Shown: positions 1 through 4,937 of the stretch, piece by piece | How positions within the stretch are numbered: the stretch's first letter is position 1 | Layout: every line of letters starts with the position of its first letter | Assembly (NCBI GenBank): GCA_003599485.1 | Contig: QZKM01000036.1 | Coordinates: 1-33,216, forward strand | Reading direction: 5' to 3' | Length of the DNA stretch: 33,216 nucleotides | Source of the DNA: Gammaproteobacteria bacterium | GTDB taxonomy: Bacteria > Pseudomonadota > Gammaproteobacteria > SURF-13 | Position numbers and translations under genes: made by a program | Notes under the pieces: model-generated | What the model saw: only the letters and a program-made list of their open reading frames with translations | Databases searched by the model: none | What the model was told of the DNA's origin: nothing

Positions 1-470
1 CCAACGGCGCGGAGGACGCCGAATACCTCAAGCGCACGCCGCCCTATCGCACCGCCAACGCGCCGCTGGTGAGCGTAAGCGAACTGCTGCTGGTGAACGG
101 TTACAGCGCGCAGGTTTACACCCGGCTTGCGCCTTACGTGTGCGCGCTGCCCGCCGTCACCGGGATCAACGTCAACACCGCCCCGGCGCAGGTGCTCGCC
201 GCGCTCGCCGACGGCATAGCGTTGAGCGAAGCGGAGAGCGTGGTGAAAACGCGTGAGCAGAAACCCTTCGCCACGGTGCAGGAGTTCGCCGTGCATCCCG
301 CGCTCGCCGGACGCGCCGTCCCGCAGGACAAGCTCAGCGTGCAGAGCAGCTATTTTTTGGTCAACGGAGCGGCCACGGCGGGGCGCGGGCAGGTACAATT
401 ATATAGTCTGCTGTTTCGCAATGATGCGGGCGTGGTCACCACGCTCGCGCGCACGCAAGGGGCTTATTGA
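1..470 (+). CDS. gspK: Type II secretion minor pseudopilin GspK (C-terminal part, cut by window start)
   Basis: GspK caps the tip of the type II secretion pseudopilus in the inner membrane/periplasm, in complex with GspI and GspJ. The reading frame is open from position 3. It starts inside the protein with an NGAEDAEYL stretch, a PPYRTAN segment and then a VSELLLVNGY motif, which are typical of the GspK alpha-helical domain. The helix-hairpin-helix-like segment INVNTAPAQVLAAL follows at about residues 54-67 of the visible part, and the end is LARTQGAY. About 156 residues are visible; the N-terminal prepilin peptidase site and transmembrane helix lie outside the window. The gspL and gspM genes follow on the same strand, which supports the call. 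The stop codon (468-470) lies directly before a 119-nt repeat. Confidence 0.88.
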   Translation, partial: NGAEDAEYLKRTPPYRTANAPLVSVSELLLVNGYSAQVYTRLAPYVCALPAVTGINVNTAPAQVLAALADGIALSEAESVVKTREQKPFATVQEFAVHPALAGRAVPQDKLSVQSSYFLVNGAATAGRGQVQLYSLLFRNDAGVVTTLARTQGAY

Positions 471-471
471 T

Positions 472-590
472 GGCTAAGCCGCGCAGCGGCGAAGGCCGGC
501 ACACGGATGTGCTGGCGGGTGTGCGAGGTGATGTTGAAGTTACGCCAAGGATGGCATCACAGAAGTTCATTAAGAGGCCAGGTAGCTCAG
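472..590 (+). repeat. Dispersed 118-nt repeat, copy A (gspK-gspL junction)
   Basis: This segment aligns end to end with the region upstream of tRNA-Phe on the other strand (3701-3818), with about one base of length difference. The first 50 bases match at 45 positions. The centre is diverged, and the last 15 bases (GGCCAGGTAGCTCAG) are identical to the 5' end of tRNA-Phe. It contains an imperfect hairpin around 493-516 (GGCCGGCACA / TGTGCTGGC). It exactly fills the gspK-gspL gap: gspK stops 1 nt before it and the preferred gspL ATG begins directly after it. The last part (AGGCCAGG) may act as the gspL ribosome binding site. Confidence 0.8.
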
Positions 591-1808
591 ATGGATGACC
601 GGCTGTTTATACGCCTGACCGGAAGCGACAGCGCCGCCTGGCTGCGCGTGGAGCGCTCCGGCCTGATGCACGAAGTGCGCTACGGCGCGTTGACCGAGGC
701 GGCGGCGCAGGCCGCCGAACGGCGCGTGATCGTGCTCGCGCCCGCCGCCGAGGTGCTGCTCACCCAGGCCGCCGTTCCCGCGCAGGGCCGCAAGCAGGCG
801 CAACAAGCCGTCCCTTATGTGCTGGAAGATCAACTGGCCGCGGACGTCGAGTCGCTGCATTTCGCCCTGGGGAAACGCGATGCCTCAGGCCACTACGCCA
901 CGGCCGTGGTGGAGCGCGGGCGCATGGATGGCTGGCTGGAGCGGCTTGAACAGGCGGGCATCCAGCCCGGCCTGCTGGTGAGCGAAGTGCACGCGCTGCC
1001 CTGGCAGGAGGGGCAGTGGACGCTGCTTTATACTCCGTCCGGCGCGCTGCTCCGCACCGGCGCGCACGGCGGTTTTGCGCTGGATGCGGACAATCTGCAT
1101 CCCCTGCTCACTGCGGCGCTGACCGAAGCGGGCGAACGGAAGCCCGCTGTAATGCGCGTCATCGCCTACTCCGCGCACGATCTTGACTTGCAGGAGCTCG
1201 CCGCAACCTGGGGCTTTGAGTTGCAGAAACAAACGCGCCATGACGATCCGCTGGTTTTGTTCGCGCAGCAGTTCGATGAAACCAGCGCCATCAATTTACT
1301 GCAGGGAAGCTATGGCCGCGCCGAACAGTTCGGCAGATTGTGGCGTCCCTGGCGCCTGAGCGCTGCGCTGCTTGGCGCATGGCTTTTGTTCCAGACCGGC
1401 GTCATGGTGTTTGACACGGTGCGCCTTGTTCAGCAAAACCGTCAACTCAAGGCCGAGGCCGAACAAATATTCCGCAGCGCCTTTCCCGACGCGCGCGTGA
1501 CCGGCGACCTGCGCCAGTTGATGGAAAGCAAGCTCAAGGAACTGCGCCGTCACGGGCAGGGTGCGATGTTCCTCGACCTGCTCGCCAAAGCCGCCGTGCC
1601 GCTCAAACAAGGCACTGAGGTCACGTTGCGCGGCGTGAGTTACAAGGAAAACGTACTGAATCTCGACATCGAGATCAAAGACCTGCAGGCGCTGGATCAG
1701 CTCAAGCAACAGCTTGCCGGCGCGGCGCTGGAAGTGGAAATCCTCTCCGCCAGCAGCAGGGAAAACAAGGTGGAAGGGCGCCTGCAAGTGCGCGCCCGGA
1801 AGACATGA
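591..1808 (+). CDS. gspL: Type II secretion system protein GspL
   Basis: GspL is a bitopic inner-membrane protein of the secretion platform. Its cytoplasmic actin-like domain recruits the ATPase GspE, and its periplasmic ferredoxin-like domain pairs with GspM. The cytoplasmic part covers roughly residues 1-245 and ends with INLLQGSYG, a typical GspL sequence. One transmembrane helix (LSAALLGAWLLFQTGVMVF) lies at about 255-273, followed by a periplasmic domain to residue 405. The frame is open back to 507, but that extension (MCWRVCEVM...) is translated repeat sequence. The ATG at 591, giving MDDRLFIRLTGSD, fits the usual GspL N-terminus and length. The gene overlaps gspM by 4 nt (ATGA), which implies translational coupling. 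Confidence 0.9.
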   Translation: MDDRLFIRLTGSDSAAWLRVERSGLMHEVRYGALTEAAAQAAERRVIVLAPAAEVLLTQAAVPAQGRKQAQQAVPYVLEDQLAADVESLHFALGKRDASGHYATAVVERGRMDGWLERLEQAGIQPGLLVSEVHALPWQEGQWTLLYTPSGALLRTGAHGGFALDADNLHPLLTAALTEAGERKPAVMRVIAYSAHDLDLQELAATWGFELQKQTRHDDPLVLFAQQFDETSAINLLQGSYGRAEQFGRLWRPWRLSAALLGAWLLFQTGVMVFDTVRLVQQNRQLKAEAEQIFRSAFPDARVTGDLRQLMESKLKELRRHGQGAMFLDLLAKAAVPLKQGTEVTLRGVSYKENVLNLDIEIKDLQALDQLKQQLAGAALEVEILSASSRENKVEGRLQVRARKT

Positions 1809-3639: not shown

Positions 3640-3715
3640 TGGTGGCCAGGGACGGAATCGAACCGCCGACACGGGGATTTTCAGTCCCCTGCTCTACCAA
3701 CTGAGCTACCTGGCC
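3640..3715 (-). tRNA. tRNA-Phe (anticodon GAA)
   Basis: The minus strand reads as a complete 76-nt cloverleaf. The acceptor stem is GGCCAGG / CCTGGCC (3709-3715 with 3644-3650), the discriminator is A, and the 3' CCA is encoded at 3640-3642. The D-arm is AGCTCAGTTGGTAGAGC, the anticodon arm is GGGGACTGAAAATCCCC with anticodon GAA, and the T-arm contains GGTTCGATTCC. No strong T-run terminator is seen directly downstream before the SDR gene. Confidence 0.97.
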
Positions 3716-3818
3716 CTGATAAACTTTTGTGACGCCGTCCATGGCTTTGCTACAGCCAAATCTATAACCACCCGCCAGCACATCCTTGTGCTGGCCTTCG
3801 CCGCTTCACGGCTCAGCC
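3701..3818 (-). repeat. Dispersed 118-nt repeat, copy B (tRNA-Phe upstream region)
   Basis: Read in tRNA orientation, this copy starts GGCTGAGCCGTGAAGCGGCG and contains a near-perfect hairpin (GCCAGCACA-AGGA-TGTGCTGGC). It then holds an AT-richer GGTTATAGATTT segment and ends in the first 15 nt of tRNA-Phe. Copies A (472-590, other strand) and C (3837-3930) align with it. As it lies directly upstream of the tRNA, it must contain or displace the tRNA promoter; the TATAGA hexamer within it is a weak -10 candidate. Confidence 0.82.
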
Positions 3819-3836: not shown

Positions 3837-3930
3837 GCTACCTGGCCCTGATGAACATCTGCGATGCCATCCATGGCTTTGCTGCTGCGAAATCTATAAC
3901 CACCCACCCAGCCCTTCCTGGCCTTCAGCG
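3837..3930 (-). repeat. Dispersed 118-nt repeat, copy C (tandem to copy B, partial)
   Basis: A second copy of the tRNA-Phe upstream region lies about 130 nt further upstream in the same orientation. It shares GGTTATAGATTT, AGCAAAGCCATGGA and ATCAGGGCCAGGTAGC with copy B, including the first 11 nt of the tRNA. It then diverges into GGGGTCGCG instead of continuing as a tRNA. Its hairpin is degenerate (CCAG-GAAGGG-CTGG). The stop codon of the neighbouring dioxygenase gene (3925-3927) lies inside its outer edge. It is either the scar of a duplication that lost a second tRNA, or a tandem insertion. Confidence 0.78.
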
Positions 3931-4746
3931 AAAGGCGCGTATTGTACCGTGTTTGGCGCGGCTGGAGTCAAGTTTAGCTCGTGGAATAACGATCTCAGGC
4001 AGACTTGTCGAGCGCGTGCCGGGCAGGGGGTGATTGTCCGCGCCGTGGTAGGTGAAGACCAGGGAAAACTTGGTATGCGCGGTCTGGTTGCGGCCCGCGG
4101 CGTGCAGGGTGCGGCAGTGGAAAAACACCACGTCGCCCGGCTCCAGTTCGGCCAGACGTGCTGTGGCGATGAGGGCCTGATTTTCCGGGAGATCGGTGCG
4201 GAAAAAGGCCGCGCTATCGAAACGCTCCGGCGCAAACTCCATTTTATGGCTGACGGGTATAAGTTTGAGCGCGCCGTTGTCCTCGCGCTCGGCGCCGAGG
4301 GCGAGCCACACGCTGATGAGTTCCGGCTTCTCAAATGACCAGTAGCGGATATCCTGGTGCCACAGGGTGTCGCTGCTGTAGCACGGCTGTTTGGTCATCA
4401 GGCTGTTATGATGCGCCTGCGACAGCATCAGCACGGGGCCGAGCAGTTGCGTCAGGCGCGCCGTGATTGCGGGCGCCGCCGCCCAATCGCGGAACAGGGC
4501 GTGGCGCGCGTAGACCTGCAACAGGCGGCGCACGGTGCGCCCGCCCGGCGCCTCGCGTGCGGGCGGCGCGCCCGGATAGTGCAGATCGGCCTCGTACTCC
4601 ACCATACCCAGCGCCGCGCCCGGCTCATGCGTCAGCGCCTCCTCGGCGTACGCCGTCATGCGCGCGCACAGCTCGCGCGGGGCGAGTTGACGCACGATGA
4701 GGTAGCCATCCTGATTGAAGCGCGTGATTTCTTCCGGCGTGAACAT
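3925..4746 (-). CDS. Phytanoyl-CoA dioxygenase (PhyH) family protein
   Basis: A 273-residue predicted Fe(II)/2-oxoglutarate-dependent oxygenase of the PhyH family. The metal triad is visible: H-x-D in LWHQDIRYWS at about residues 128-137, and a distal His in VVFFHCRTLHAAGRNQT at about 216-232, followed by SLVFTYHG. The N-terminus FTPEEITRFNQDGYLIV is the usual PhyH opening. Bacterial PhyH proteins hydroxylate varied small molecules, so the substrate cannot be assigned. The ATG at 4746 is the natural start. The last codons (AFR-stop) run into repeat copy C, so the C-terminus may have been altered by the repeat. It is monocistronic, with tRNA-Phe downstream. Confidence 0.82.
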   Translation of the reverse strand: MFTPEEITRFNQDGYLIVRQLAPRELCARMTAYAEEALTHEPGAALGMVEYEADLHYPGAPPAREAPGGRTVRRLLQVYARHALFRDWAAAPAITARLTQLLGPVLMLSQAHHNSLMTKQPCYSSDTLWHQDIRYWSFEKPELISVWLALGAEREDNGALKLIPVSHKMEFAPERFDSAAFFRTDLPENQALIATARLAELEPGDVVFFHCRTLHAAGRNQTAHTKFSLVFTYHGADNHPLPGTRSTSLPEIVIPRAKLDSSRAKHGTIRAFR

Positions 4747-4806
4747 GCCGTCTATTGTAATTTATTTCCCCGCGCTCTTGGCGCGGGCTCCTTAACAATG
4801 GGGTTT

Positions 4807-4855
4807 CCAAAGGGGGAGAGCGCAGCGAGGGGGCCCCGTCAGCTCTCCCCTTTGG
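4807..4855. repeat. Long inverted repeat in the PhyH-uvrD divergent gap
   Basis: The arms CCAAAGGGGGAGAGC (4807-4821) and GCTCTCCCCTTTGG (4842-4855) are complementary except for one extra G, around a 20-nt GC-rich loop. No T-run follows on either strand, and it sits between two divergent 5' ends, so it is not a terminator. It resembles intergenic palindromic repeats spread in bacterial genomes. No second copy is visible in this window. Confidence 0.6.
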
Positions 4856-4861
4856 TCGCCT

Positions 4862-4880
4862 GCGCGGATTCATTCCGCGC
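4862..4880. repeat. Short perfect hairpin upstream of uvrD
   Basis: GCGCGGA-TTCAT-TCCGCGC forms a 7-bp stem with a 5-nt loop, 57 nt upstream of the uvrD start and 6 nt after the larger palindrome. It could be an operator or a leader hairpin. No conserved LexA box (CTG-N10-CAG) was recognised in this gap, although uvrD is LexA-controlled in E. coli. Confidence 0.4.
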
Positions 4881-4937
4881 GGTGCGAAATCAAATTCAAT
4901 CCGCGGAGCCGCGCCCGCGATATGTTAAAATTCATCC

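Follow-up and report, generated by a model that had tools for sequence, protein, structure and literature searches.

A Probable Non-autonomous Hairpin Element with a Preference for tRNA Genes at the gspK–gspL Junction of a Gammaproteobacterium

In the window (the whole 33,216-nt stretch of DNA analyzed here), the gspK gene (T2SSK family) ends with a TGA codon at 468-470 and the gspL gene (T2SSL/GspL_C) begins with an ATG at 591, leaving an intergenic gap of 120 nt (471-590), one more than the 119 nt counted in a first-pass annotation of this DNA. The gap ends with the beginning of tRNA-Phe, which raises the question of how such a sequence came to lie between two protein-coding genes. Our analysis strongly suggests that a non-autonomous hairpin mobile element, one that prefers tRNA genes, has inserted here.

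The gspK–gspL Junction and Its Empty Counterpart

DNA search revealed that the gap matches the region upstream of tRNA-Phe (77% over 123 nt, E-value = 3.5e-20). The two had been described as aligning along their whole length; the match is real but not uniform, consisting of three blocks (472-521, 90%; 544-570, 89%; and 576-594, 95%) interrupted by dissimilar sequence, whereas the reported identity with 15 bases of the tRNA itself was exact. The tRNA-Phe upstream region comprises one full unit and one older partial unit (table 1). In H1, the outer pairs (474-475/493-494) are formed across an internal loop, which is a tandem G.A in most copies of the element.

Table 1. Features of the gspK–gspL junction and of the tRNA-Phe region in the window.
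Feature	Position	Strand	Remark
gspK stop and left flank TGATGG	468-473	+	Predicted empty site TATTGATGG/ATGACC
Inserted unit, 121 nt	474-594	+	ATGG on both sides
Hairpin H1	474-494	+	Stem 478-482/486-490; RNA fold and family structure
Hairpin H2 (GCCGGCACACGGATGTGCTGGC), loop ACGGAT	495-516	+	RNA fold and family structure
Hairpin H3 (GCCAAGGATGGC)	544-555	+	Family alignment/structure
Element 3' part, resembling the tRNA-Phe leader	556-575	+	Closest to the Phe copy
tRNA-Phe nt 1-15 (GGCCAGGTAGCTCAG), abutting the gspL ATG	576-590	+	Sequence identity
tRNA-Phe (gaa)	3640-3715	-	
Full element copy, with a degraded 5' piece of tRNA-Phe upstream and the intact tRNA-Phe on the other side	3716-3816	-	Model match 3729-3816
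Older, degraded unit whose 3' end is the first 11 nt of tRNA-Phe	3837-3943	-	

A short spacing between the two genes was sought in relatives, and in most of them the corresponding junction has gspK and gspL abutting or overlapping (-4 to +3 nt; 17 nt in the same-family genome G005), as exemplified by G038 (CCTATTGATGG) and G039 (TACTGATGG). In silico deletion of 121 nt from the window yields TATTGATGGATGACC, a stop–start overlap as in these two genomes. Searches for gspL and gspK found no readable junction in G001-G004; the same-genus genome G001 is 76% complete and lacks both genes, and no same-genus empty gspK–gspL site is readable. Since the genes abut or overlap in most relatives, we conclude from sequence comparison that the gap is a derived insertion splitting a TATTGATGG junction.

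The 3' part of the inserted copy, including the tRNA piece, is nearest to the Phe copy (32 of 37 positions identical), and this piece, which lies outside the core, was probably brought along from the tRNA-Phe site. The core itself shares 71 of 83 positions with Met-tRNA cores versus 65 of 84 with the Phe core, as expected if cores are exchanged, but not if the Phe unit had simply been copied in recent time. It is plausible that the element provides the start context of gspL, its end coinciding with the gspL start codon.

Structure and Distribution of the Element Family

The element is approximately 105 nt long, contains no gene, and forms three hairpins, the second and third of which (H2 and H3) mostly bear an ANGGA loop (in 83 of the 90 copies, the loop of H2 contains GGA). 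Thirteen cores were alignable with few gaps. In the three-hairpin structure, 96% of cells are paired, 22 cells have changed on both sides versus 6.6 in shuffles, and the covariation score is 0.339 versus at most 0.085 for slid controls, with covariation present in H1 and H2. Whether treated as RNA or as single-stranded DNA, the core folds (z-scores of -1.7 to -3.8). In nearly all copies seen, the element starts with G(T/C)GA after GG; a few start with C(T/C)GA.

At least 31 copies are present in the own genome (G000, 1.69 Mb). A first DNA search detected about ten, at tRNA-Phe, Thr(tgt), Arg(acg), Ser(gct), Arg(cct), Ala(cgc), a CAU tRNA, and non-tRNA places, and reading upstream of tRNA genes added copies at Arg(ccg), Met, Val(cac), and Ser(gga). 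When further copies were sought with a covariance model, 34 matches (E-value ≤ 1) were obtained in this genome, and 25 of 95 genomes of the class, the own genome included, contained matches. An exact pattern of the D-loop form (see below) was found in 44 stretches of named records, nearly all from Gammaproteobacteria. These include isolates of Alcanivorax, Marinobacter, and Marinimicrobium, so the element cannot have arisen as an artefact of a single metagenome assembly. Relatives of the element also occur in Sedimenticola.

Rfam searches assigned the element to no RNA family, returning only tRNAs, a group I intron, and chance-level matches. A hammerhead ribozyme was considered and rejected, because the HH9 match scored 21.7 bits versus the 52 needed and the core reads CAGGUGA instead of CUGAUGA; the GA(A/G)C side varies together with its partner. 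No published description of the family was found in the literature covered, which lay largely outside subscription journals. If our reading is right, this is an undescribed, hairpin-rich element family often located at gamma-proteobacterial tRNA genes.

Several other arrangements and repeats were observed. A csrA–tRNA-Ser–tRNA-Arg cluster with copies downstream of csrA is present in G000 (C32:4462-5152), G001 (C110), G003 (C22), and G016 (C104). In a variant subfamily (L118, L123, L137, L142, L143, and L159), H2 and a third hairpin have tandem G.A mismatches (CGAG...CGAG) in place of the GGA loops. On own contig C9, a group I intron (RF00028, E-value = 4.6e-21; L169:901-1142, minus strand) interrupts a CAU tRNA in its anticodon region; this tRNA also bears the element and was missed by ARAGORN. 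In front of several tRNA genes, a second type of dispersed repeat (CCCTCATCCCCATCCC...GAGCCGAGGCGCTGCGCGC) stops just short of the promoter region (upstream flanks of L022, L023, L027, L008, and L067; also L179 of G001). A third repeat type (GGGGTTTCCAAAGGGG...CTCTCCCCTTTGG...CGCGCGGTGCGAAATC) occupies positions 4796-4900 of the window, between PhyH-like and UvrD-like helicase genes, and similar stretches occur at L035, L080, and L015.

The conserved loops allow another explanation, that the element is mainly a functional tRNA-leader RNA whose ANGGA hairpins bind CsrA/RsmA, with tRNA transcription or the gspL mRNA titrating or responding to CsrA and mobility being secondary. The SELEX consensus of CsrA is RUACARGGAUGU; the H2 and H3 loops, with GGA so frequent in H2, fit the known CsrA site, and the Arg(ccg) copy (GUACAAGGAUGU) fits this consensus. 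Copies at tRNA sites lie between promoter and tRNA and should therefore be transcribed. Moreover, csrA was detected in 79 of the 95 genomes, most element carriers among them, and copies lie directly downstream of it in G000, G001, G003, and G016. That proximity, however, is explained by the csrA–tRNA-Ser–tRNA-Arg gene order, and the loops are unchanged in intergenic copies and in copies antisense to tRNA-Pro, Arg, and Ser. Same-genus tRNAs also differ in element presence, Alcanivorax copies lack GGA in H2, and four genomes (G005, G013, G043, and G083; some incomplete, some with weak matches) have matches without a detected csrA. We consider a primarily regulatory role unlikely. Because intergenic and antisense copies conserve the loops, and because some variants lack GGA, CsrA binding is possibly an optional effect and not the reason for the element.

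Insertion at tRNA Genes

Among the 31 strongest copies of the own genome, 19 have a tRNA gene no more than 300 nt away, compared with 1.7% expected (binomial P-value about 1e-26, the copies not being fully independent). The remaining 12 have no tRNA within this distance, which contradicts the claim of the first-pass annotation that the repeat always ends inside a tRNA gene. In resolved cases, sense entry is at nt 19 of the tRNA, within the D-loop (n = 30), at nt 18 (n = 2, Ser tRNAs), or at nt 15 (n = 1, Lys(ttt)), a set partly selected by the search pattern. Antisense entry, in a set not selected in this way, is in the T-arm, 16 nt from the 3' CCA end (n = 4). Rarer entry points, seen once each, are the anticodon stem in G024 (a tandem array) and a position near the variable loop in G040. 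Insertion at the tRNA 5' end, as suggested earlier, is thus one of several modes of entry. GG adjoins the entry point in 133 of 225 structure matches, and in one nested insertion (L083) the H2 loop of another copy is split at AAGG.

The tRNA segment from the terminus to the entry point occurs on both sides of the element, and the tRNA therefore stays whole. The identity between left flank and right end extends over 15–60 nt at tRNA sites, being longest in tandem arrays (15–31 nt at single tRNA sites). Direct repeats at non-tRNA copies do not exceed chance level, which rules out a constant target duplication at all sites; a single mechanism for both kinds of site is therefore not established.

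Insertion by a reverse transcriptase (target-primed and SINE-like) or by a Cas1/casposase-like integrase would likewise duplicate target DNA. The 15–19-nt duplications anchored at tRNA ends, the border GG (CC on the other strand), and the repeat–spacer-like arrays agree with such an enzyme. On the other hand, RVT_1 is absent from G000, G001, G003, G024, G045, G050, and G090, Cas1 is absent from G001, G003, G016, G024, G045, G050, G087, and G090, and the element has no terminal inverted repeats, all of which make this route very improbable.

Tandem units were found at Arg(cct), Met, and Met of G024. They could in principle reflect an ordinary tandem duplication, in which slippage or unequal crossing over copies the leader together with the tRNA 5' end and the hairpins are a by-product. 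One core is common to many unrelated tRNAs and to non-tRNA sites, which rules this process out, and neither the covariation described above nor a same-genus pair of empty and filled sites agrees with it; we give it practically no credence.

This pair is tRNA-Lys(ttt), which is empty in G000 and filled in G001 within the same gene context, the duplication being exactly GGGCCGTTAGCTCAG (nt 1-15). In G001, a hairpin insert of about 58 nt, of uncertain family membership, lies between two copies of CCTCTCTCTCCGCCA at the 3' end of tRNA-Ser(gct), where G000 has a single copy of this sequence; the duplication is 15 nt and ends at CCA. As judged from these comparisons, insertion at tRNA sites is directional and recent.

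At tRNA-Arg(acg), where both genomes carry the element, the flanks are nearly identical (83 of 83 positions upstream and 88 of 89 downstream), whereas the cores share only 60 of 88 positions (Fisher's P-value = 5e-14), with paired changes in H2. Cores at orthologous sites (identity 0.70–0.82) show no greater similarity than do cores at non-orthologous sites (mean 0.72). Such divergence between near-identical flanks argues that cores are exchanged, presumably via reinsertion or gene conversion between copies, two routes that the data do not separate.

Possible Mechanism of Insertion

The preferred reading, an inserted hairpin element with a preference for tRNA genes, agrees with the proposals of the first-pass annotation, namely copying or integration at a tRNA 5' end, or a small non-autonomous element with an internal hairpin; the element data support insertion at tRNA ends by an element of this type. 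As the comparisons show, entry into a tRNA gene occurs at a set position (after nt 19 in the D-loop, after nt 15 or 18 in certain tRNAs, or antisense in the T-arm), and the tRNA end is found on both sides, leaving an intact tRNA and allowing tandem arrays to accumulate. They also show that cores at orthologous tRNA sites are replaced faster than their flanks change. The gspK–gspL copy may have left the tRNA-Phe site as one unit, composed of core, leader, and tRNA nt 1-15 or 1-19; in the latter variant, one change would create the gspL ATG. This unit would have inserted into the TATTGATGG stop–start overlap of gspK and gspL before or after core exchange. A trans-acting protein may recognize the folded single strand (the tandem G.A of H1 and the H2/H3 loops) and join the 5' end beside GG.

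No transposase, integrase, or autonomous copy of the element was found. Two exact-pattern scans of viral contigs gave no element copies, phage matches being tRNAs only, and a distant search of plasmids with the Sedimenticola array was also negative.

One candidate for the acting protein is a RAYT (Y1 HUH transposase), in which case the element would be of REP type. REP hairpins have a tandem G.A at the stem foot, and H1 resembles them. Y1_Tnp is more common in carriers (21 of 25) than in other genomes (38 of 70; P-value = 0.009, uncorrected for kinship or genome size), and inverted dimers are present in G087. However, none of 22 Y1 loci (2 own, 20 from relatives) adjoins an element copy, apart from a lone R1 match at L247 with an E-value of 0.74, the RAYT locus L168 of the own genome has a different inverted repeat (GTAGGATGGGTG), and G016 (97% complete, nine matches) has no Y1 match. 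Mobilization by a RAYT is quite unlikely.

Two related structures deserve mention. At L168:1197-1829 on own contig C1, a Y1 (RAYT-like) gene lies between inverted GTAGGATGGGTG repeats and represents a separate REP system. The G087 dimers (L204, L207, L212, and L216) have ACAGGATTAA(G)CAGG on both sides and form a REPIN-like composite.

A bolder interpretation of the inserted element, offered tentatively, is that tRNA genes serve as renewable docking sites, where an enzyme would insert small folded cassettes of DNA or RNA at set positions of the tRNA, rebuild the tRNA by end duplication, and generate repeat–spacer-like arrays, with cores swapped between sites; this would represent an unrecognized class of mobile elements. 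If our preferred reading is right, many gamma-proteobacterial tRNA genes are flanked by an undescribed mobile element that is invisible to current annotation, having neither an Rfam family nor a gene. It would lengthen pre-tRNA leaders, could introduce CsrA-like hairpins into the transcripts of tRNAs and mRNAs, would alter gene junctions such as gspK–gspL, and imply a recombination activity that preserves tRNAs via duplicated ends.

Comparison with Known Systems

Two hairpins with ANGGAY-like loops are characteristic of the TwoAYGGAY candidate RNA (PMC2864571), which the element resembles in this respect, as it does CsrB/RsmZ RNAs, which bind and titrate CsrA; its loop sequence fits a putative CsrA site. 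The element matches no family of the Rfam library searched, which may not include TwoAYGGAY.

REP elements and REPINs are GTAG- or CGTC-tagged palindromes associated with RAYT transposases (PMC3733652). Like them, the element is short, gene-less, hairpin-forming DNA in many copies, which may form inverted dimers (G087) and whose carriers often have Y1 transposases. It differs in having three hairpins within approximately 105 nt and no GTAG or CGTC tag, in targeting tRNA genes with end duplication, and in not lying beside Y1 genes (22 loci scanned). With bacterial MITEs it shares a non-autonomous nature, an intergenic location, and the ability to supply the stop or start context of neighbors; in contrast to MITEs, it has no terminal inverted repeats (no inverted pair of at least 12 nt bounds 474-594) and no fixed target duplication.

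Family 2 casposons of A. boonei target tRNA genes, producing 14–15-bp duplications and needing CC at the border (PMC6614799). The 15–16-nt duplication ending at the tRNA 3' terminus beside the T-loop and the border CC are similar (PMC6614799), whereas most element carriers lack Cas1, and the element lacks TIRs and also enters tRNA 5' halves.

Integrase islands at tRNA genes likewise have a tRNA target, a partial tRNA on one side and a whole one on the other, and tandem accumulation. If our preferred reading is right, tRNA fragments beside tRNA genes are not necessarily remnants of such islands. Unlike them, the element is only about 0.1 kb long and has no integrase (the 121-nt unit encodes no tyrosine recombinase), has one core at many different tRNAs, and enters via the D-loop and the antisense T-arm.
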